DNA of 51,134 nucleotides, taken from IMG/VR virus record IMGVR_UViG_3300022744_000038, positions 1 to 51,134 of that record; one strand, written 5' to 3'. Positions 4,183 through 43,855 of this stretch are shown here, piece by piece. Source of the stretch: a virus. The notes beneath the pieces are model-generated. The model saw only the letters and a list, made by a program, of their open reading frames with translations, was not told the DNA's origin and made no database searches. The stretch's first letter is position 1. Each line of letters starts with the position of its first letter. A program made the translations under genes and the position numbers.

Positions 4183-4638
4183 ATGAGTAATGAAGGCGCA
4201 GAATTTGAAAATGGATCAGCTGCACAGGTTGATCTGTCGGGCGTAGAAGAAGATGCGGGTTTTGAACTTCTTCCTAAAGGTACTTACGACGTTATCGTGG
4301 AAAATGCTGAGGCTAAAACTAGCTCAAGCGGCAATCCGATGTTCTCACTGACTTTGGTGGTTACTTCGGGTGACTTCGAAAACCGTAAGTTGTTTACTCA
4401 CGTTGTCTTCGCTCCTAAGACTATGGGACAAGCAAAACGCACAATCAATCGTTTGGGACTGGCTGAGCTGCTCGAAGGTCCTTTTGCGGTCGATCAAGAT
4501 ACTGCAGATAAATTTGTAGGTATCTATGCGCGCGCAGTTGTCGGTATTCAGAAATATGAAGGTGAAGACCGCAACAATGTGAAAAACTTGCTGCCTGCAA
4601 TGGGGGAATCTGATGGATTCCTTAACTCAGAAGACTAA
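4183..4638 (+). CDS. DUF669-type single-stranded DNA-binding protein
   Basis: The 151-residue acidic protein has the DUF669 pattern: FELLPKGTYDVIVENAEAKTSSSGNPMFSL, then a KLFTHV strand, then an alpha-helical AKRTINRLGL region and an acidic tail. In phages these proteins sit next to Sak4 ATPases and are thought to act as ssDNA-binding proteins. AAAGGA precedes the ATG. The 49-base gap upstream has a short direct repeat (ACCAAACT twice) but no clear promoter. The gene's end overlaps the following HTH gene. Confidence 0.8.
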   Translation: MSNEGAEFENGSAAQVDLSGVEEDAGFELLPKGTYDVIVENAEAKTSSSGNPMFSLTLVVTSGDFENRKLFTHVVFAPKTMGQAKRTINRLGLAELLEGPFAVDQDTADKFVGIYARAVVGIQKYEGEDRNNVKNLLPAMGESDGFLNSED

Positions 4639-4894
4639 GGCAATACAAGAGTTAGCTTCACGAGGATATATTTCACTAAGTAAGTTTGCATTGCTAGCTG
4701 GGGTGTCATATCCAACAGCACTTAAGCTAGCAAAAGACGGAAAAGTTGAAACGACGCAAGTCGGGAGCGTATATCGGGTTTATACCGATGAAGTTCATAG
4801 ATTCCTTCGTGAAGGTAACCGTCAGGAAAATGGGAGCGATCCCATTTTTCTATTACCCAATTCCTTCCCAACCCCTGATATATTTGAGGATTAA
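4613..4894 (+). CDS. Small MerR/excisionase-type HTH DNA-binding protein
   Basis: The protein has 93 residues. Residues 17-65 form a winged-helix pattern (YISLSKFALLAGVSYPTALK, then GKVETTQVGSVYRVYTDEVHRFL) like HTH_17/excisionase-type domains. The C-terminus is short and low in complexity. The gene overlaps the preceding ssDNA-binding gene by 26 bases and ends four bases before queC, at the head of the deazaguanine genes. It could be a regulator or a DNA-architecture protein. No target site is evident. Confidence 0.7.
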   Translation: MDSLTQKTKAIQELASRGYISLSKFALLAGVSYPTALKLAKDGKVETTQVGSVYRVYTDEVHRFLREGNRQENGSDPIFLLPNSFPTPDIFED

Positions 4895-4897
4895 ATT

Positions 4898-5593
4898 ATG
4901 ACAAGAGTACTGGTATTACATAGTGGCGGTTTAGATAGTTCCGTTGCTTTAATGGCAGCCGTAGAAGAATATGGAGCTGCAAATGTTGTTTCTTTGGGCA
5001 TTGATTATGGTCAACGTCATCTTAAAGAATTGGAGTATGCTAAACAGTTGTGCCAAGTACTCGGCGTTGAGCGGGACACTGTTAAGTTACCTAAAATTGA
5101 GGGCGTCATGTTAACCGATGCTTCGATTGAAATTCCAAAGATTTCCTATGATGAGATTGAAGGTATTTCGCCAACATATGTTCCATTTCGTAATGGCCTT
5201 ATGCTCTCAGTTATTGCGTCTAAAGCGCAGAACGAGGGCTTTGATATTATTGTCTATGGTGCGCATGCGGAAGATGCTAAGAATTGGGCATATCCAGATT
5301 GTACTCCTGAATTCAATGGTGCTATGGCAAATGCGATCTTTATTGGTACCTACCAAAAGGTTCGTTTGCATACACCTTTCCAATGGGCGGAAAAGCATGA
5401 AATTGCTTTAAAAGGTGGTTTACTAGAAGACGATTACCGGCGCAGAAATAAGGTAGGTACCAGTTTGCTTGCGTTAACTTGGTCTTGCTATAAAGGTGAT
5501 GAACATCATTGTGGTACATGTCCAACATGTCGCGCACGAAAAGAAGCTTTTATTAAAGCCGGCGTCACTGATCCTACAATTTATGCGGAGTAG
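4898..5593 (+). CDS. queC: 7-cyano-7-deazaguanine (preQ0) synthase
   Basis: QueC converts 7-carboxy-7-deazaguanine to preQ0 with ammonia and ATP. The 231-residue protein has the PP-loop SGGLDSS at residues 9-15 and the zinc cysteines at 197, 205, 208 and 211 (HCGTCPTC). Length is that of a normal QueC; no glutamine-amidotransferase (Gat) domain is fused, unlike the Gat-QueC proteins reported to make archaeosine-type DNA bases. It is the first of five clustered 7-deazaguanine genes; folE starts three bases later. Function is confident; the final base in the DNA is inferred. Confidence 0.95.
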   Translation: MTRVLVLHSGGLDSSVALMAAVEEYGAANVVSLGIDYGQRHLKELEYAKQLCQVLGVERDTVKLPKIEGVMLTDASIEIPKISYDEIEGISPTYVPFRNGLMLSVIASKAQNEGFDIIVYGAHAEDAKNWAYPDCTPEFNGAMANAIFIGTYQKVRLHTPFQWAEKHEIALKGGLLEDDYRRRNKVGTSLLALTWSCYKGDEHHCGTCPTCRARKEAFIKAGVTDPTIYAE

Positions 5594-5596
5594 AAT

Positions 5597-6295
5597 ATGA
5601 GTGAAAATCATCCAGTAGAACGTACTTTAAAAGTTTCGGAGCGCATTCGCAATAGATTGAAAGAAGCTGAAGCTCCTTTCTTTGCTAATGATTCTATTGC
5701 AGCGTTCATCAAAGAAGGTGAAATTGAAGAACTAAAAAAAGAAGCTGCAGGGCATATAGAAGCTTTGTTGGATACTTTGGTTATTGATCGTGAGCATGAT
5801 CATAATACCAAAGATACTGCCGCCAGAGTAGCTAAGATGTACATAGATGAAGTGATGATGGGAAGGTATTTCCCATCACCAAAAATTACAGCATTTCCAA
5901 ATGCCAAACATTTAGATGAAATTATTGCTGTAGGACCTATCGAAATCCGCTCTATGTGTTCTCACCACTTAGTGCCGATTATAGGACAAATTTGGATCGG
6001 TGTTATTCCCGGTGAAACGGTAATTGGTCTTTCCAAGTTTAATCGTTTAGCACATTGGATAATGTCTCGCCCACAGATTCAGGAAGAAGCCTGTGTACAA
6101 TTAGTAGATATGCTGGAAAAAGAATTACATACCAGCAATGTTATGCTAGTCATGCGTGCAGAGCATATGTGCATGAAGTGGAGAGGTGTTAAGGATAACT
6201 CTGTAATGGGTAATTCGATCGTGCGAGGAGTATTTGGTAAAAATCCTGCCGCAAAAATGGAATTTCTGGAAATCATTAAAGGAATGGGGTATTAA
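5597..6295 (+). CDS. folE: GTP cyclohydrolase I
   Basis: This enzyme opens GTP to dihydroneopterin triphosphate, the first step towards preQ0. The 232-residue protein shows the FolE core: IEIRSMCSHHLVPIIGQIW with zinc ligands Cys and His, GLSKFNRLAHW, and AEHMCMKWRGVKDN with the third ligand Cys. The N-terminal 60 residues are charged and less conserved. It lies between queC and queD with almost no gaps, so its product is expected to feed preQ0 synthesis rather than folate. Confidence 0.94.
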   Translation: MSENHPVERTLKVSERIRNRLKEAEAPFFANDSIAAFIKEGEIEELKKEAAGHIEALLDTLVIDREHDHNTKDTAARVAKMYIDEVMMGRYFPSPKITAFPNAKHLDEIIAVGPIEIRSMCSHHLVPIIGQIWIGVIPGETVIGLSKFNRLAHWIMSRPQIQEEACVQLVDMLEKELHTSNVMLVMRAEHMCMKWRGVKDNSVMGNSIVRGVFGKNPAAKMEFLEIIKGMGY

Positions 6296-6802
6296 ATGAA
6301 TGAACCGTTTGAAATTATCCGGGAGATCGGAATTGATGCGGGACATAGAGTAACTCACCATGGTTCCAAATGTAAAAACCTTCATGGACATCGATATACG
6401 GTTCAAGCGTGTGTAAAAGGCACGCTTTTTCCATCCGGAGAACAAGAAGGTATGGTTCTTGATTTTGGTTTCCTGAAAGAACTAATGATGGAACATATTG
6501 ATGAACCTTGCGATCATGGTATGACTCTTTGGGTTGATGATCCGCTTGTTGGAACAATGTTCTTAACTCCTGAACAACTTGTAATGGCCAAGTATAGCAT
6601 TGAAACAAGTGGATATTGGTTAGGATATGGAAATGGTGGAAAGCTTTATTTAGTTCCATTTGTTCCGACTGCCGAAAATCTAGCCAGACATTGGTTTCAA
6701 AGATTACAACAGCCCGTTGCAAGCCGTACCCAAGGCCAGGGTGAAATCTCATACGTTAAAGTATGGGAAACACCTAATGGAATTGCAAAATACCCAGCTT
6801 AA
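6296..6802 (+). CDS. queD: 6-carboxytetrahydropterin synthase
   Basis: QueD turns dihydroneopterin triphosphate into 6-carboxy-tetrahydropterin. The 168-residue protein has zinc histidines His17, His30 and His32 (DAGHR and NLHGHRY) and the catalytic Cys26 in SKCKNLHGH. The acidic DFGFLKEL and the CDHGMTL segment follow. It is somewhat longer than bacterial QueD because of an insertion around residues 88-115. Its start directly abuts the folE stop. Confidence 0.94.
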   Translation: MNEPFEIIREIGIDAGHRVTHHGSKCKNLHGHRYTVQACVKGTLFPSGEQEGMVLDFGFLKELMMEHIDEPCDHGMTLWVDDPLVGTMFLTPEQLVMAKYSIETSGYWLGYGNGGKLYLVPFVPTAENLARHWFQRLQQPVASRTQGQGEISYVKVWETPNGIAKYPA

Positions 6803-6811
6803 GGAAATAAC

Positions 6812-7453
6812 ATGACTATACATACAATTGCCATCTTTGATACTGAGACTACTGGCTTGCCTGTCGCTAAGGCATCTTATCAATCACCTCAGCAGCCACA
6901 TATTATGCAATTAGCTACAATGCTTATTGATGATGTAGGTAACTCTTTAAAAAAGTTTAACCGTTTAATTAAACCTGAAGGATACACACGTGTAGATGAA
7001 GGGGCTTTTAATGCACACGGAATATCTTTTGAAAAAGCTATGGATGAAGGTATTCCGCGTAAAGAAGTATTTGATGAATGGCGTGAACTAACTCGTGATA
7101 GTGTTTTATTAGTAGGACATAACGTATCTTTTGATAGAAGGTTATTGGATATCAATATGTGGCGTACTTATCACCATTTAAACCAGTCCTACAGAAGTAA
7201 ACCTACCTTCTGTACAATGCATTCATATACCAAGCAAGTAAAATTACCTGCAACGGCTAAGATGAAACAATATGGTTTTGGTCCATATAAAGCACCTACA
7301 TTGCAAGAGTTACACCAATTTTTATTTGGGGAACCTTTTGATAAGGCACACGATGCTATGGCAGACGTAGAAGCTTGTGCTAAAGCATTTTTAGTACATC
7401 CGGATAGGCCAAGTATAAAAAATATTCTGAGCCAACCACAAAAATTGCGTTGA
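6812..7453 (+). CDS. DEDDh 3'-5' exonuclease (DnaQ-like)
   Basis: The 213-residue protein carries exo I IFDTETTGLP at the N-terminus, exo II around HNVSFDRRLLD, and exo III HDAMADVEACAKAF, the DEDDh set of the DnaQ/RNase T family. It is a stand-alone nuclease inserted between queD and queE. The DNA polymerase further downstream has its own exonuclease domain, so this protein may serve repair, host DNA turnover or RNA trimming. AAGGAAA precedes the ATG. Confidence 0.88.
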   Translation: MTIHTIAIFDTETTGLPVAKASYQSPQQPHIMQLATMLIDDVGNSLKKFNRLIKPEGYTRVDEGAFNAHGISFEKAMDEGIPRKEVFDEWRELTRDSVLLVGHNVSFDRRLLDINMWRTYHHLNQSYRSKPTFCTMHSYTKQVKLPATAKMKQYGFGPYKAPTLQELHQFLFGEPFDKAHDAMADVEACAKAFLVHPDRPSIKNILSQPQKLR

Positions 7454-7478
7454 TTGTTCTTTAAAATTAGGCTAATAT
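7450..7478 (+). promoter_or_regulatory. Probable promoter before queE-dpdA-polymerase
   Basis: TTGATT at 7450-7455 and TAATAT at 7473-7478 are separated by 17 bases in the 44-base gap before queE. It overlaps the end of the exonuclease gene and would give a short leader carrying TAGGAG before the queE ATG. Confidence 0.5.
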
Positions 7479-7497
7479 AAATAATAGGAGTTATTTA

Positions 7498-8262
7498 ATG
7501 ACTGACAAAAAACTGCCACTAATTGAGCTATTTGGTCCAACAATTCAGGGTGAAGGTACAATGTGTGGTAAAGTCACACATTTTTTGCGCCTCGGAATAT
7601 GTGATTCTAAATGCACTATGTGTGATTCCAAGCATGCAGTAGATCCTGAACAAATTAAGAAATGGGCTAGATATCTTACTATACCTGAAATTCTCGATGA
7701 AATTGCATTGTTGCCAAAAGCTCCTTGGATGACCTTAACGGGAGGTAATCCTTGTGTACATAATTTGGCAGACTTAGTTACAGGTATTCAAGCAATGGGT
7801 ATGAAAGTGGCATTGGAAACTCAAGGTACCTTTTTTCCGTCTTGGGTACATAAGTGTAATCTAGTGACTATATCACCTAAAGGACCTGGTATGGGAGAAA
7901 TGTTTAATGAGAACCTGTATGAACCTTGGGCAGACTTTCAAAATGAAATGCTGTATATGCGTAAAGAGCAACCTAGCACATGGGCTCCTGAAACTTGCTT
8001 AAAGGTAGTAGTATTTAATGAACAAGATTTAGCGTTTGCTAAATATGTATGGGATCTTACACCTGATGTGCCTTTATTCTTGTCTTTAGGCAATAGCTGG
8101 TTGCCTGATGAATCTGATGTTACGGGAGATGAGCATGTACTTAAGCTTACCGCTAAATATCGTGAAATGGCTGAACTACTTTATAAAGATCCTGTACTAT
8201 GTAATGCAAGATTCTTGCCACAGTTGCATACACTAATCTGGTCTAATGATAAAGGTAGATAG
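7498..8262 (+). CDS. queE: 7-carboxy-7-deazaguanine synthase (radical SAM)
   Basis: QueE ring-contracts 6-carboxy-tetrahydropterin to 7-carboxy-7-deazaguanine. The 254-residue protein begins with PTIQGEGTMCGK, has the QueE-type C-x3-C-x2-C cluster at Cys35, Cys39 and Cys42 that binds a 4Fe-4S centre, and then TLTGGNPCVHNL, the SAM-contacting glycine motif. The C-terminal 110 residues are longer than in minimal QueE proteins. It has its own likely promoter and a good TAGGAG site. Confidence 0.94.
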   Translation: MTDKKLPLIELFGPTIQGEGTMCGKVTHFLRLGICDSKCTMCDSKHAVDPEQIKKWARYLTIPEILDEIALLPKAPWMTLTGGNPCVHNLADLVTGIQAMGMKVALETQGTFFPSWVHKCNLVTISPKGPGMGEMFNENLYEPWADFQNEMLYMRKEQPSTWAPETCLKVVVFNEQDLAFAKYVWDLTPDVPLFLSLGNSWLPDESDVTGDEHVLKLTAKYREMAELLYKDPVLCNARFLPQLHTLIWSNDKGR

Positions 8263-8279
8263 GTAATATATTACTATCT
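8257..8279 (+). other. Hairpin over the queE stop codon
   Basis: AGATAG, then the self-complementary GTAATATATTAC, then TATCT form an 11-base-pair AT-rich stem with one bulged G and almost no loop. It includes the queE stop codon and ends 15 bases before the dpdA start. No T-run follows, so a classic terminator is unlikely. It could tune translation or stabilise the upstream RNA. Confidence 0.4.
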
Positions 8280-8294
8280 GACAGGAAAATTTAA

Positions 8295-9065
8295 ATGAAA
8301 GGTATAAGATTTAAAATGACACAATATTCTCCCGTAGCTCCTGTAGAAGTACTGCAGCAAATGAAACTACGTAATATGCTTAGTAATTACCTATTGTTGC
8401 TGGCGCACGAAGTAGTTAATAAACCACATGCATATGCACAATTGCTAGACGGTTTTGATGGTACTATTATTTTGGACAATAGTTTAATTGAATTGGGAAC
8501 GCCAGTTGATATGTCGGTCATGCTTACTGCCGCCGCTATTGTAAAACCCAACTTCGTAGTTATGCCTGATATGCTTGGTGATAGAGTAGCTACTGTTAGT
8601 ATGACTACTGCAGCTATCCAGCAGTATGGAAGTAAGTTTATTGACGGTACAGGATTTATGGTAGCCGCTCAAGGTAATGATGTGAATGATGCAGTATGGT
8701 GTGTGGAGGAAATTGTGAAAAAACATAAATCTGCGCATTTTATGGTGGGTATTCCTCGTGAAGTTACAAATAGGCAAGGTTCGCGTATTCCTTTAACCAG
8801 TCAATTAACTGCACGTAAATATCAGGTACACTTATTGGGAATGTCTAACAATTTCAAGGATGATGTATCTAGTGCATTAATTTATGGAGTGCAAGGTATT
8901 GATTCAGCGTCTCCGGTACGTGCAGGTTGGGATAATTTAGTGTATACAGGACAGACATCACATTTAAGGCCTCGCGAAGAATACTTTGAACAATGTCGTG
9001 GATTTAATATGATGATGGCATACAATGTAGGGATGATTGAAGGCTTGATCGGAGCAAAGAAATGA
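8295..9065 (+). CDS. dpdA: DpdA-like DNA 7-deazaguanine transglycosylase
   Basis: The 256-residue protein resembles the tRNA-guanine-transglycosylase fold of phage DpdA proteins. It has IILDNSLIELG near residues 58-68 with a candidate catalytic Asp61, VVMPDMLGDR near residue 93, then GIPREV and VHLLGMSNN strands. It is much shorter than bacterial TGT, as phage versions often are. Directly behind queE and overlapping the polymerase by four bases, it is best read as the enzyme swapping guanine in phage DNA for preQ0. The specific base is not proven. An internal ATG at 8316 is possible, but GGAAAATT favours 8295. Confidence 0.82.
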   Translation: MKGIRFKMTQYSPVAPVEVLQQMKLRNMLSNYLLLLAHEVVNKPHAYAQLLDGFDGTIILDNSLIELGTPVDMSVMLTAAAIVKPNFVVMPDMLGDRVATVSMTTAAIQQYGSKFIDGTGFMVAAQGNDVNDAVWCVEEIVKKHKSAHFMVGIPREVTNRQGSRIPLTSQLTARKYQVHLLGMSNNFKDDVSSALIYGVQGIDSASPVRAGWDNLVYTGQTSHLRPREEYFEQCRGFNMMMAYNVGMIEGLIGAKK

Positions 9066-11338
9066 ACAATTCTATAAAAGCAACACCAATTAGAAGCTGG
9101 GGAAACCCGGCTTCTAAATTTGTTGTAGTTGGTGAAAGTCCCAGTGCTATTGAAACTTTGCCTGGACGCACATTTTCAGGAGAATCCTGGAAATACGTAA
9201 TGGATAAACTACCTAAAGATTTAGATATCCTGTATGTTAATGCTATTCCTGAAATAGTCCCACGTAAAGATCCTCAGGTAGTACTTAAATACGTGGAGAA
9301 ATATAAGCAATCGCTTTGGGACATCTTAACCGAATATCCCCGAGAAACTATTGTTGCTTTGGGTAGTGGTGCTTTATGGGCATTAACCAATAACTATGAC
9401 CTACGCATCACCGCTGAGCGGGGCCGATTAATAAAGTCAAATTGGTCGCTTAATGGCATTATTCCATGCTTACATCCTGCCTATGTTTTGCGTGGAGGAG
9501 GTTCTGCTAAGAAATTTGAAGAAGATATTGCTATGGCAATAGCTTTACATTATAAACAACCTATCAAAGCTTACATAGAACCAACTACCTATTTAATTAC
9601 ACCTAAAAATGTGAATTGGGTTAAAGCAGAAATACGTAAGGTAGGCATAGTTGCTTCGGATATTGAGACGGGAGGTTTAAATCGTCAACAAGATCGCATT
9701 CTTACAACGGGATTTTGTTGGAAGCCTTCAGAAGCATGGATTTGTCCTCCTGAACTAATCAGGGAATTTAAAGACATTATGGAAGACACATCCATTAAAT
9801 GGATTTGGCATAATGGCAAGTTTGATATTGCATTTTTACGACGTGATTGCATCTGGGCGCGTGTAGATGAAGATACCATGCTTTTAAATTACTGCCTAGA
9901 TGAAACACGCGGTGTACATGATCTGGATACTGTAGCTAAGGATATTTTAGGGGCACCTAATCATAAACATGTACTAGATGATTGGTTTGAATCGCAAGGC
10001 ATGTCTAGCAAGAACCGTGATTACAGTTTAATTCCGTTTGATATCCTATTCAGCTATCAGGGCAAAGACTTAAGTAAAACTCTACAGATTTGGCAGCAAT
10101 TAAGGCCTTTAGTTAAACAAGATGCTGCATTAGATAAACTATATACATGCACATTACTACCTGCATCTGAATTGCTGTATTACGTAGAAGCTCGAGGATT
10201 TGCATTTAATTGGGAAGCGTGGGAAGCTAATAAAGTACGTTTAACGGAACATGTTAATGCGCTTGCAGAGGAAATTAATTGTATTGTAGGGCGTTCAATA
10301 AATCCTGGGAGTTCTAAACAAGTATGCGCGTATGTATATGATGAACTGAAGATTAAATCTAAGGGTAAACGGTCTTCGGGTAAAAAAGCAGTCGCCAGAT
10401 GGCCTAACATCCCATTCAAAAAGGCTTTAAGTGATTGGAGGGTAGCCAGCAAGGCTTTAAGCACATATATTATAGGCTTAGCTAAGCATGTACACGAAGA
10501 TAATAGAATTTATCCGACATTCTTACTACACGGTACGCGTACTGGAAGACTTGCATGTAGAGAGCCTAACTTGCAAAATATTCCTCGCGATGCACGTTTG
10601 AAAGGAATGTTTAGAGCATCCCCAGGATACATACTATTAGATTTGGATGCATCCCAGGCAGAATTACGTAGTCTAGCTATTCAATCAGGTGATCCGGATC
10701 TTTTGGCTATTTATAATTCTACCGACCGTAGCTTGCACAAAGAGACTGCAGTATATAGATATGGACCAGATTACGATGAAGAAGAATATACCCGTGCTAA
10801 AGCAGTTAACTTTGGGGTTATTTACGGACGTACGGCTGCATCGCTGGCGGATGAATTTAAAATTCCAGTAGAACAGGCTCAAGCAGAAATTGATTCCTTT
10901 TGGGCGCAGTTTCCTGTTGCTAAAGCTTTTCAGGATAGATGTCGTGCAGCACCCCTAAAGAAACAGACTATTGTAACTATTTTTGGGCGAAAATGTCGTC
11001 CAGGAATGATTAATGCGGAAAATAAAGACAGTGTTCAAAATGAATTTGCCAATTTTCCACATCAGTCTACTGCTTCAGATATTACTATTCACGTAGCAAT
11101 ATTAATTCGCCCACTGTTAGAAGCTTTGGGTGCATATATTGTTAATCTTGTGCATGACTCTATTGTGGTAGAATGCCCCAATGATCCTGCAATTATTGCC
11201 GAAGTAAAACAACTGGGATTATTATACTTTCCGAAAGTAGCTAAGGAATGGGGATTAACTAAAGCACCGTTTATTTCGGAATGCAAAATGTGCTATAGTT
11301 GGGGTACAAATGTAAAAGAAATCCAAACGGATTATTAA
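9062..11338 (+). CDS. Family A DNA polymerase with N-terminal uracil-DNA-glycosylase-like domain
   Basis: The protein has 758 residues. Residues 1-165 look like the UDG superfamily: VVVGESPSAIE, GRTFSGESW, YVNAIPEIVPRKDP and the late CLHPAYVLR motif. Residues 190-360 are the 3'-5' exonuclease (ASDIETGG, WHNGKFDIAFL, YQGKDL). Residues 400-758 are the PolA palm and fingers: TGRLACREPNLQNIP, motif A LLDLDASQAELR, motif B RAKAVNFGVIYGR and motif C VHDSIVVE. All polymerase carboxylates are present. It should be the phage replicase. A UDG-like domain on a polymerase that copies modified DNA is notable; whether it excises or only senses uracil is unknown because no CxxC iron-sulfur set is seen. Confidence 0.93.
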   Translation: MNNSIKATPIRSWGNPASKFVVVGESPSAIETLPGRTFSGESWKYVMDKLPKDLDILYVNAIPEIVPRKDPQVVLKYVEKYKQSLWDILTEYPRETIVALGSGALWALTNNYDLRITAERGRLIKSNWSLNGIIPCLHPAYVLRGGGSAKKFEEDIAMAIALHYKQPIKAYIEPTTYLITPKNVNWVKAEIRKVGIVASDIETGGLNRQQDRILTTGFCWKPSEAWICPPELIREFKDIMEDTSIKWIWHNGKFDIAFLRRDCIWARVDEDTMLLNYCLDETRGVHDLDTVAKDILGAPNHKHVLDDWFESQGMSSKNRDYSLIPFDILFSYQGKDLSKTLQIWQQLRPLVKQDAALDKLYTCTLLPASELLYYVEARGFAFNWEAWEANKVRLTEHVNALAEEINCIVGRSINPGSSKQVCAYVYDELKIKSKGKRSSGKKAVARWPNIPFKKALSDWRVASKALSTYIIGLAKHVHEDNRIYPTFLLHGTRTGRLACREPNLQNIPRDARLKGMFRASPGYILLDLDASQAELRSLAIQSGDPDLLAIYNSTDRSLHKETAVYRYGPDYDEEEYTRAKAVNFGVIYGRTAASLADEFKIPVEQAQAEIDSFWAQFPVAKAFQDRCRAAPLKKQTIVTIFGRKCRPGMINAENKDSVQNEFANFPHQSTASDITIHVAILIRPLLEALGAYIVNLVHDSIVVECPNDPAIIAEVKQLGLLYFPKVAKEWGLTKAPFISECKMCYSWGTNVKEIQTDY

Positions 11339-11367
11339 TTAAATAATGGTCATATATAGGAACCCTG

Positions 11368-11397
11368 TTGAAATGCCTTATAGGATTCCTATATAAT
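11368..11397 (+). promoter_or_regulatory. Promoter with overlapping operator-like dyads
   Basis: TTGAAA at 11368-11373 and TATAAT at 11392-11397 are 18 bases apart, ahead of the small gene at 11424. TATAGGA-T-TCCTATA at 11379-11393 is a perfect dyad overlapping the -10 box. A second pair, TATATAGGAA at 11353-11362 and TTCCTATATA at 11386-11395, forms a longer inverted repeat. This arrangement suggests protein control. Confidence 0.62.
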
Positions 11398-11423
11398 AAA
11401 GTATATTCACAATTTAACTAGGC

Positions 11424-11747
11424 ATGAAAATGGCACTTACACCTAAAGAACGCAAACAACGGCAAATTAAACTTCGTCAAGCAAGTCTGCATGTACGCAC
11501 TAACTTATTTTGGCAAATTCATCTGGCTTATAGATGTAATACTGGTCCTATGCAAGGGATTACCACTGAATTTGCAGTTACTTACCTGTATGATTTAATT
11601 GAAGCTTCTCCTGAAAAAGTGCTACATGAACGTTTGTGGCAATTACGAGACAATATCGTGGGAGTAAAGACACGTACAGCAAAATCCTGTACAGCGCGAC
11701 AATATGAAGGTAATGGCGGAGATGATGATGGACCTCGTGCAGCCTAG
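11424..11747 (+). CDS. Small conserved-looking basic protein of unknown function
   Basis: The 107-residue protein has a basic N-terminus (TPKERKQRQIKLRQASLHVRTN) and a Gly/Asp-rich tail. I do not recognise a domain. It follows its own promoter after the polymerase gene. A second ATG two codons in (11430) is equally possible, since no strong ribosome binding site is present. Early host-takeover function is conceivable but unsupported. Confidence 0.6.
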   Translation: MKMALTPKERKQRQIKLRQASLHVRTNLFWQIHLAYRCNTGPMQGITTEFAVTYLYDLIEASPEKVLHERLWQLRDNIVGVKTRTAKSCTARQYEGNGGDDDGPRAA

Positions 11748-11871
11748 AATCTTGCATTTACTTAAAGCATGCCGTTACATCCATAAAGATTTCATTCGCG
11801 CCACTGCCGGGACGGTATCTCGGTCCAGAGTTGTTAACAATATTAGTTACCTTTTTAACTATTGTGCTTAA
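11728..11871 (+). CDS. Possible 47-residue basic peptide
   Basis: This frame starts inside the end of the preceding gene, with CGGAG six bases before the ATG at 11728, the third of three tandem ATGs. The product is Arg/Lys-rich (LLKACRYIHKDFIRATAG and onward). There is no recognisable family. Overlapping position and a plausible ribosome binding site argue for it; its small size argues for caution. Confidence 0.4.
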   Translation: MDLVQPRILHLLKACRYIHKDFIRATAGTVSRSRVVNNISYLFNYCA

Positions 11872-11985
11872 TGACATATAATATCCCATTGATTTTAAAC
11901 AAGGAATTCACGGTCAATAGAAAACGCCATTTAGAGGCACTTATATTGCCTACGCATCGCCGTTTAGCGGGCTAACAGATAAAGA

Positions 11986-12019
11986 AAATCTCCCGGAGCT
12001 GAGGACAACCGGGAGATTT
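11986..12019. terminator. Bidirectional terminator between converging halves
   Basis: AAATCTCCCGG at 11986-11996 pairs perfectly with CCGGGAGATTT at 12009-12019 (11 base pairs, 12-base loop). TTTCTTTC follows on the plus strand, and the mirror TTTTCTTT follows on the minus strand. It lies exactly between the plus-strand replication genes and the minus-strand late genes. Confidence 0.82.
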
Positions 12020-12043
12020 CTTTCACAGGAGACTTGTGAATTC

Positions 12044-12328
12044 TTAACCAGCTTTTCGGGCCAGTTTAACTTTGGCCCTTAAAGCACGGTAATCAGAGAC
12101 AATCCTATCAATCATAGGACATGAATGTACTTCTATACCTTCAGCCGATTTACTAATGGGGCATTTGGTATTTAATTCCATCTCCAAAGCAGTTAATTCC
12201 TCTTTAGAGTACTGTTGCTCGTATAGCACTACGTTAGAAGGTACCATCGTGCATGCTGTTACGATCATCAGTACTAGTAGGCCTAGACTTAGACGCTTCA
12301 GCGAGTTGTTCCTTAAGTTGCTTGACAT
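12044..12328 (-). CDS. Outer-membrane lipoprotein spanin (Rz1-like)
   Basis: The 94-residue protein has a signal sequence (residues 10-25) ending in the lipobox VTAC with Cys26 as the lipidated residue. A 69-residue periplasmic part with a helical segment follows (SKEELTALEMELNTK). Its start overlaps the i-spanin gene in another frame by 95 bases, the classic nested arrangement. It would fuse inner and outer membranes at lysis together with the partner. Confidence 0.8.
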   Translation of the reverse strand: MSSNLRNNSLKRLSLGLLVLMIVTACTMVPSNVVLYEQQYSKEELTALEMELNTKCPISKSAEGIEVHSCPMIDRIVSDYRALRAKVKLARKAG

Positions 12329-42987: not shown

Positions 42988-43397
42988 CCAACACTAAAGA
43001 AGAACTACAGGAGGCAAGTGATGAATTTGAAACGATGCTTCGATTTATCGCATTAAGTCATGCGTATTGGAAAACATGCGATAAGGATTTTATCTCCGAT
43101 AAAGCTGTGGACGCAATCCGCACCGTTCTTGACGACGCGCTGGCAGACACCGAGAAATCCTCAGACGTTGACCATGTTACCGACACGAATGTCGGTAAGA
43201 TACGCGCCGAGCAGCCAGCGGTGGAGCCAATCGAAGGTCTTGAGGATGCGCTAGATGTTGAGTCATCCATGTCACCTGATGAATACGGCGAGAAACTAAG
43301 AAACTTCGCCAAGAAGTACGGTAAACAGGATTTCTCCGCGAGAATAAAAGAAGCGGCTCGCAGATACTACACCCTAACCAAGCGGGAGGGCGCGTGA
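42984..43397 (+). CDS. Hypothetical acidic helical protein
   Basis: The 137-residue protein is acidic and helical, ending in a basic ARRYYTLTKREGA. The start at 42984 (AAGGAAC upstream, AATGA overlap with the previous stop) is preferred over the in-frame ATG at 42957. The DNA is clearly more GC-rich than the structural genes. No family recognised. Confidence 0.52.
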   Translation: MTNTKEELQEASDEFETMLRFIALSHAYWKTCDKDFISDKAVDAIRTVLDDALADTEKSSDVDHVTDTNVGKIRAEQPAVEPIEGLEDALDVESSMSPDEYGEKLRNFAKKYGKQDFSARIKEAARRYYTLTKREGA

Positions 43398-43855
43398 TGA
43401 AAGCACTATCAATCAACCAGCCTTGGGCTTGGCTAATTGTAAATGGTCACAAAACTGTAGAAAATCGCGATTGGGACACAAAATATCGCGGTGAGTTTCT
43501 TATTCATGCGGGCAAGAAATTTGATGAGGATGCTTACTGGTATATTGAAGATAAATTCCCAGAAATAGAACTTCCGCCACAAGAACAGTTTTCTAAAATG
43601 ATGGGTGGGATTGTCGGAAAAGCGAGGTTGATAAATACTATACATGACAGAGATAGGCATTTACTGAGCGCAAAAGATAAACCATGGTTTTTCGGCTCTT
43701 ATGGCTTCATACTTGATGATGCAGAACCTATGGATTTAAAGCCATGCAAAGGGGCATTGGGATTTTTTGAGCCTGATTATAATTCAAAATATGTTGAGAA
43801 GCAGAAGAAACCTAAAAAACAAAAACCTATAAGCACTCAAGGAGAATTGATATGA
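43397..43855 (+). CDS. ASCH-domain protein
   Basis: The 152-residue protein shows the ASCH fold pattern at its start: KALSINQPWAWLIVNGHKTVENRDW, then RGEFLIHAGKKFD, later MMGGIVGKARLI and KPCKGALGFFEP. ASCH domains resemble PUA domains and are thought to bind nucleic acids or act on modified nucleosides. In a phage with modified guanine this is a notable neighbour, but there is no direct link. GGGAGGG precedes the ATG at 43397. Confidence 0.82.
   Translation: MKALSINQPWAWLIVNGHKTVENRDWDTKYRGEFLIHAGKKFDEDAYWYIEDKFPEIELPPQEQFSKMMGGIVGKARLINTIHDRDRHLLSAKDKPWFFGSYGFILDDAEPMDLKPCKGALGFFEPDYNSKYVEKQKKPKKQKPISTQGELI

Follow-up and report, generated by a model that had tools for sequence, protein, structure and literature searches.

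Phages that carry preQ0 (7-cyano-7-deazaguanine) in their DNA include Escherichia phage CAjan and Mycobacterium phage Rosebush, with dPreQ0 in 28-32% of G (PMC6884629). Each encodes four preQ0 enzymes and a DpdA without an amidotransferase, the gene content that marks the dPreQ0 phages (group 2 of Hutinet 2019). Enterobacteria phage 9g (dG+), in which the preQ0 genes likewise adjoin dpdA and a polymerase gene, has instead a QueC with a Gat domain and a 317-aa DpdA1 of the tRNA-guanine transglycosylase (TGT) superfamily, and Vibrio phage nt-1 joins the same pathway to a 464-aa DpdA2 and carries ArcS. Campylobacter phage CP220 belongs to a genus with deazaguanine-substituted DNA. The stretch analyzed here, referred to as the window, is the linear, possibly incomplete 51,134-base virus sequence IMGVR_UViG_3300022744_000038, in which a first-pass annotation made from the letters alone had proposed a cluster of queC, folE, queD, queE and a dpdA-like gene at 4898-9065. 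Its gene content, all found within the record, is that of CAjan and Rosebush, although the likeness is one of gene set, the DpdA proteins of those phages being of the DpdA/DpdA2 types described in the 2019 literature. The operon would very probably serve to put preQ0 in place of guanine in the DNA of the phage itself.

All of the biosynthetic genes lie on the plus strand. The queC product (4898..5593), a preQ0 synthase without a Gat domain, matches PF06508 (E 1e-52) and the solved QueC structure 2pg3 (E 8e-26), and it contains SGGLDS, YGQRHLKE, VPFRN, YPDC and Cx7CxxCxxC, that is, the complete canonical signature of a preQ0-forming QueC as defined experimentally in PMC13329287. It is followed by folE (5597..6295; GTP cyclohydrolase I, PF01227, E 2e-42), whose product has the zinc-site motifs CSHH and HMCMKWRG (HxCxxxRG), and by queD (6296..6802; 6-carboxytetrahydropterin synthase, PF01242, E 1e-30, and TIGR03367, E 5e-21), whose product has CKNLHGH (CxxxHGH) and also matches a solved structure. 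The radical SAM enzyme QueE, 7-carboxy-7-deazaguanine synthase (7498..8262), was recognized through TIGR03365 (E 1e-56), phrog_2076 (E 2e-34) and the solved QueE 5tgs (E 3e-38), with the cluster motif CDSKCTMC (Cx3Cx2C). All four enzymes of the FolE-QueD-QueE-QueC pathway are present with catalytic and metal motifs intact, and together they would supply a complete route to preQ0. The cluster read from the letters alone was in this way found to be real, gene by gene and at the same coordinates, and the statement that its key residues are present holds for every catalytic motif checked.

The dpdA-like gene (8295..9065, plus strand; the start could be 8316) encodes a protein of 256 amino acids that has no significant match in Pfam, PHROGs or PADLOC and a weak, sub-threshold match to the NCBIfam DpdA model (E 0.007). 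Because family-library matches were absent or weak, its assignment as a DpdA-like DNA guanine transglycosylase required structure prediction and profile comparison (AlphaFold, Foldseek and hhalign). The AlphaFold model is confident (pLDDT 95.7, pTM 0.92), and in a Foldseek search of the PDB it showed the TGT-type TIM barrel of the TGT/DpdA superfamily: ranks 1-39 are all tRNA-guanine transglycosylases (E 7e-7 to 2e-5, TM up to 0.69), and rank 40 is the DNA preQ0 insertase DpdA as crystallized in 7ui4 (E 5e-5). In a viral structure library the matches were nt-1 DpdA2 (R9TGF0, E 5e-5) and phage proteins annotated as queuine tRNA-ribosyltransferase; a sequence-profile search of the PDB returned chance matches only. 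The protein contains D61, D92, QG126-127, H179 and D203, of which D61, H179 and D203 (D54, H172 and D196 if numbered from residue 8) are invariant across 35 family members. D61 and D203 form the paired catalytic aspartates at the barrel strand ends, and their aligned counterparts in DpdA1 are the DSG and DSS motifs. No zinc site like that of tRNA TGT (CxCxxC...H) is present, the protein having only two cysteines, at 136 and 234. It is most likely a minimal TGT/DpdA-fold enzyme, a DNA guanine transglycosylase. Membership among the transglycosylases, on which the first-pass annotation had staked its reading, is upheld by the TGT-like fold and by profiles shared with annotated phage DpdA.

As for its kinship, tblastn against phage records gave matches only in Brevundimonas phages StAshley and MaInes and in Weizmannia phage Youna2; in StAshley and Youna2 the gene lies inside the preQ0 cluster, 5' of polA. 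The StAshley order (SSB-HTH-queC-queD-queE-dpdA-polA) is as in the window, and the DpdA-like and QueC proteins of the Brevundimonas phages are 32% and 40% identical to those of the window, but folE lies about 7 kb downstream, the exonuclease insert is lacking and dpdA is annotated "hypothetical". A three-member profile matched CPT_0056 of CP220 (E 1e-12), and a search with CPT_0056 led to a gene of Flavobacterium phage immuto annotated "DNA guanine transglycosylase, DpdA" (44% identity). With a 35-member profile, hhalign aligned the whole barrel with CPT_0056 (E 4e-20) and with immuto DpdA (E 5e-24), proteins of similar size (258-264 aa) having the same active-site residues. A deep profile comparison with 84 DpdA1-type proteins gave a remote match (E 8e-4), relating the two at the superfamily level only, with motifs in collinear order (LDNS with LDSG, MPD with VLD, AQG with HxGE, HLLG with HGFG, and IDSA with CDSS). 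These comparisons indicate that the protein belongs neither with DpdA1 of 9g nor with DpdA2 of nt-1, and that it represents a third, smaller family common to Campylobacter and Flavobacterium phages; the label "DpdA-like" given in the first-pass annotation stands as regards transglycosylase ancestry and is refined as to type. A subfamily allowing complete guanine replacement was reportedly named DpdA3 by Cui et al. in 2023. We take the CP220/immuto family, and hence the window protein, to be probably DpdA3.

A maximum-likelihood tree of 65 family members, with the split read at the midpoint, consists of two clades with full support. Clade 1 includes CP220, immuto, phiST, Youna2 and BSP7, and clade 2 comprises the window, 39 environmental contigs and the Brevundimonas phage, Brevundimonas phages being the only isolates found in this clade. 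The mutual placement of phiST and the CP220/immuto pair, both long branches, is unsure, and the deep split is independent of it. The closest relatives of the window protein are those of two environmental loci (L012/L013, 65% identity) and of a third (L014, 42%). Bacterial and archaeal genomes scanned with one peptide pattern yielded no relative, so the family looks viral and no host was assigned. In the Bacillus phages BSP7, BSTP5, BSTP8, BSTP10 and BSTP12, members of the family are annotated as hypothetical protein, integrase/recombinase, polynucleotide kinase or NadR, probably misannotations.

Genomic context was examined in loci chosen without regard to the neighboring genes. Searched against IMG/VR as a single sequence, the DpdA-like protein gave no match, and the three-member profile was needed; by this protein alone it recovered 80 loci, of which 44, non-redundant at 85% identity and with at least 4.8 kb upstream, were used for counts. 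Three or four of QueC, QueD, QueE and FolE are encoded nearby in 37 of the 44 loci (all four in 29), and polA stands directly 3' of the dpdA-like gene in 35. Linkage to preQ0 genes and to polA, in loci to which the DpdA-like protein alone had led, argues strongly and independently that this protein works with preQ0 and with DNA replication. Chance is no serious alternative, the same gene set occurring in dozens of unrelated viral contigs. In five loci (L044, L053, L066, L069 and L070) most or all preQ0 genes are missing from the vicinity of the small transglycosylase gene; these phages may draw preQ0 from the host or carry its genes in another part of the genome. In a further related contig (L007, IMGVR_UViG_3300050821_005831), FolE is apparently interrupted by an intein-like insert (9520-10857) and a 9g-type (DpdA1-like) gene at 11108-12250 takes the place of the small type. 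Overall, the proposal of a preQ0 pathway with a DNA guanine transglycosylase is supported by fold, by kinship with annotated phage DpdA and by context in about 40 independent loci.

The mechanism proposed for the window is as follows. FolE, QueD, QueE and QueC would convert GTP to free preQ0, as their homology and intact motifs suggest, and the 256-aa enzyme would exchange guanine in DNA for it. One aspartate, most likely D203, would attack the deoxyribose, while D61 and D92 with Q126/G127 would hold or activate the base; guanine would leave and preQ0 would replace it. Since the dpdA-like gene lies directly upstream of the polymerase gene and overlaps it, the transglycosylase is probably produced along with the replication machinery, and DNA that has just been replicated would be its substrate. 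The modification should confer resistance to host restriction enzymes, as shown for CAjan and Rosebush. Replacement of a high fraction of G is plausible by analogy, since the Campylobacter phages, which are the nearest relatives studied by experiment, have heavily substituted DNA.

Which base is made was judged from QueC and from what else the phage encodes. Searches of the 51-kb record and of a 66-kb relative (G002, L013) found no QueF (PF14489), GATase_6 (PF13522), ArcS (PF17884), TGT (PF01702) or formyltransferase (PF00551), although the same searches do recover QueF and formyltransferase of immuto and ArcS of nt-1. Apparent QueF matches in 9g and Youna2 fall on folE genes and are T-fold cross-matches. 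The earlier statement that there is no QueF and no Gat domain on QueC therefore holds for the record, and its reach is these two sequences. The full QueC signature is also kept in nearly all relatives. The QueC of CP220 (L095, 3467-4126), encoded about 46 kb from the transglycosylase gene and not in one operon with it as in the window, reads YGSNH for YGQRH and FPDC for YPDC, so that YxQxHxxE is without its Gln and YPDC without its Tyr. In PMC6884629, citing Crippen 2019, CP220-type phages are reported to have dADG, and these changes could explain why ADG is made in place of preQ0. Because the window QueC keeps the full signature that CP220 has partly lost, our best guess is that QueC sets base identity and that the window makes preQ0; the intact signature and the lack of a downstream enzyme in the record support the base that had been proposed. 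More tentatively, and perhaps wrongly, small DNA guanine transglycosylases of a large branch, paired with canonical QueC, may put preQ0 in place of all or nearly all guanine in the DNA of environmental phages, an intact QueC signature giving preQ0 and a broken one, as in CP220, giving ADG.

Several points weigh against preQ0 in the DNA of this phage. The record is linear and perhaps incomplete, and a QueF or amidotransferase gene may lie outside it; a host enzyme could also convert preQ0 further. With small alignments, hhalign gave no significant match to the 9g-type DpdA1 (E 0.14 with three sequences) or to nt-1 DpdA2 (E 0.013 over 68 columns). The clade of the window is separated with full support from that of CP220 and immuto, and no report was found of the DNA chemistry of any member of it. 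It is conceivable, though unlikely, that the DNA contains another 7-deazaguanine (dADG, dCDG, dPreQ1, dG+ or another), the transglycosylase preferring another intermediate or preQ0 being converted by an enzyme of the host or through a phage gene left unsequenced. The dADG of the CP220-type phages, which share the transglycosylase family, speaks for this, as do the QueF and formyltransferase genes adjoining the same transglycosylase gene in immuto and the several intermediates in nt-1 DNA; the complete QueC signature of the window, unlike that of CP220, and the failure to find a tailoring enzyme in the record or its 66-kb relative speak for preQ0.

Whether DNA is the substrate is a separate matter, since tRNA and DNA transglycosylases cannot be told apart by fold alone and the best PDB matches are tRNA TGTs. 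Boosting of queuosine was proposed by Hutinet et al. as an option for phages without DpdA, and the genes might similarly raise queuosine in host tRNA with the DpdA-like protein acting on tRNA. This is very improbable for a protein without the zinc site, of 256 aa as against about 370 for TGT, that falls among phage proteins annotated as DpdA and is linked by its gene to that of a DNA polymerase, in a record where neither QueF nor TGT was found. It is scarcely credible that a modified dGTP is used by the polymerase and that the TGT-like protein acts on a nucleotide. The overlap of the dpdA-like gene with polA would fit such a route, and it was once proposed for the Campylobacter phages, before a transglycosylase was recognized there; with the family now found in the CP220 group the reason for that proposal weakens, and no deoxyribosyltransferase or preQ0-nucleotide kinase was recognized in the cluster. 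Exchange of guanine for preQ0 in DNA is thus retained as the preferred explanation.

The operon runs on the plus strand in the order helicase, nuclease, Sak4-like ATPase, SSB-like (DUF669), helix-turn-helix (HTH), queC, folE, queD, DEDDh exonuclease, queE, dpdA-like and polA, with the cluster genes co-directional and separated by short gaps or overlapping. The HTH gene said to lead the cluster is indeed at its head (4613..4894, plus strand) and encodes a small HTH_17/excisionase-like DNA-binding protein whose Pfam match (PF12728, E 3e-4) is below the cut-off; a homologue occurs 5' of queC in 12 of the 44 loci and in StAshley, and the protein is probably an operon regulator. No preQ1 riboswitch was found with Rfam. 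The DEDDh 3'-5' exonuclease (6812..7453, plus strand; PF00929, E 1e-15; phrog_192, E 7e-31), with DTE, NVSFD and HDAMAD motifs, is inserted in the cluster as had been noted, but among the 80 related loci it recurs only in L012/L013, the window's own lineage, and it was rejected as a conserved part of the pathway. A DEDDh gene adjoining the phiST cluster has no recognizable relation to it. The exonuclease inserted in the window probably has an accessory role in replication or repair. The family A DNA polymerase gene (9062..11338, plus strand; PF00476, E 5e-62, and PF01612) overlaps the dpdA-like gene by 4 bases, and its product has an N-terminal domain of the uracil-DNA-glycosylase superfamily (PF03167, E 1e-6) ahead of the 3'-5' exonuclease domain. 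A PNKP-like HAD phosphatase (PF25109, E 2e-29) is encoded at the operon start (60-566) and an ASCH-domain protein (PF04266, E 2e-7) at 43394-43855. The structural genes (portal, terminase, tape measure and lambda-J-like tail protein) are of siphovirus type.

In summary, the window is probably a further case of a known type of DNA modification, in a large clade. A probable function is assigned to a widespread phage protein that is missed by Pfam and PHROGs and is "hypothetical" in isolates, and a testable rule is put forward that relates the active site of QueC to the base in phage DNA; the Brevundimonas isolates allow a direct test of the prediction. DNA of this kind makes phages resistant to common restriction enzymes, and some library methods may under-sample them.

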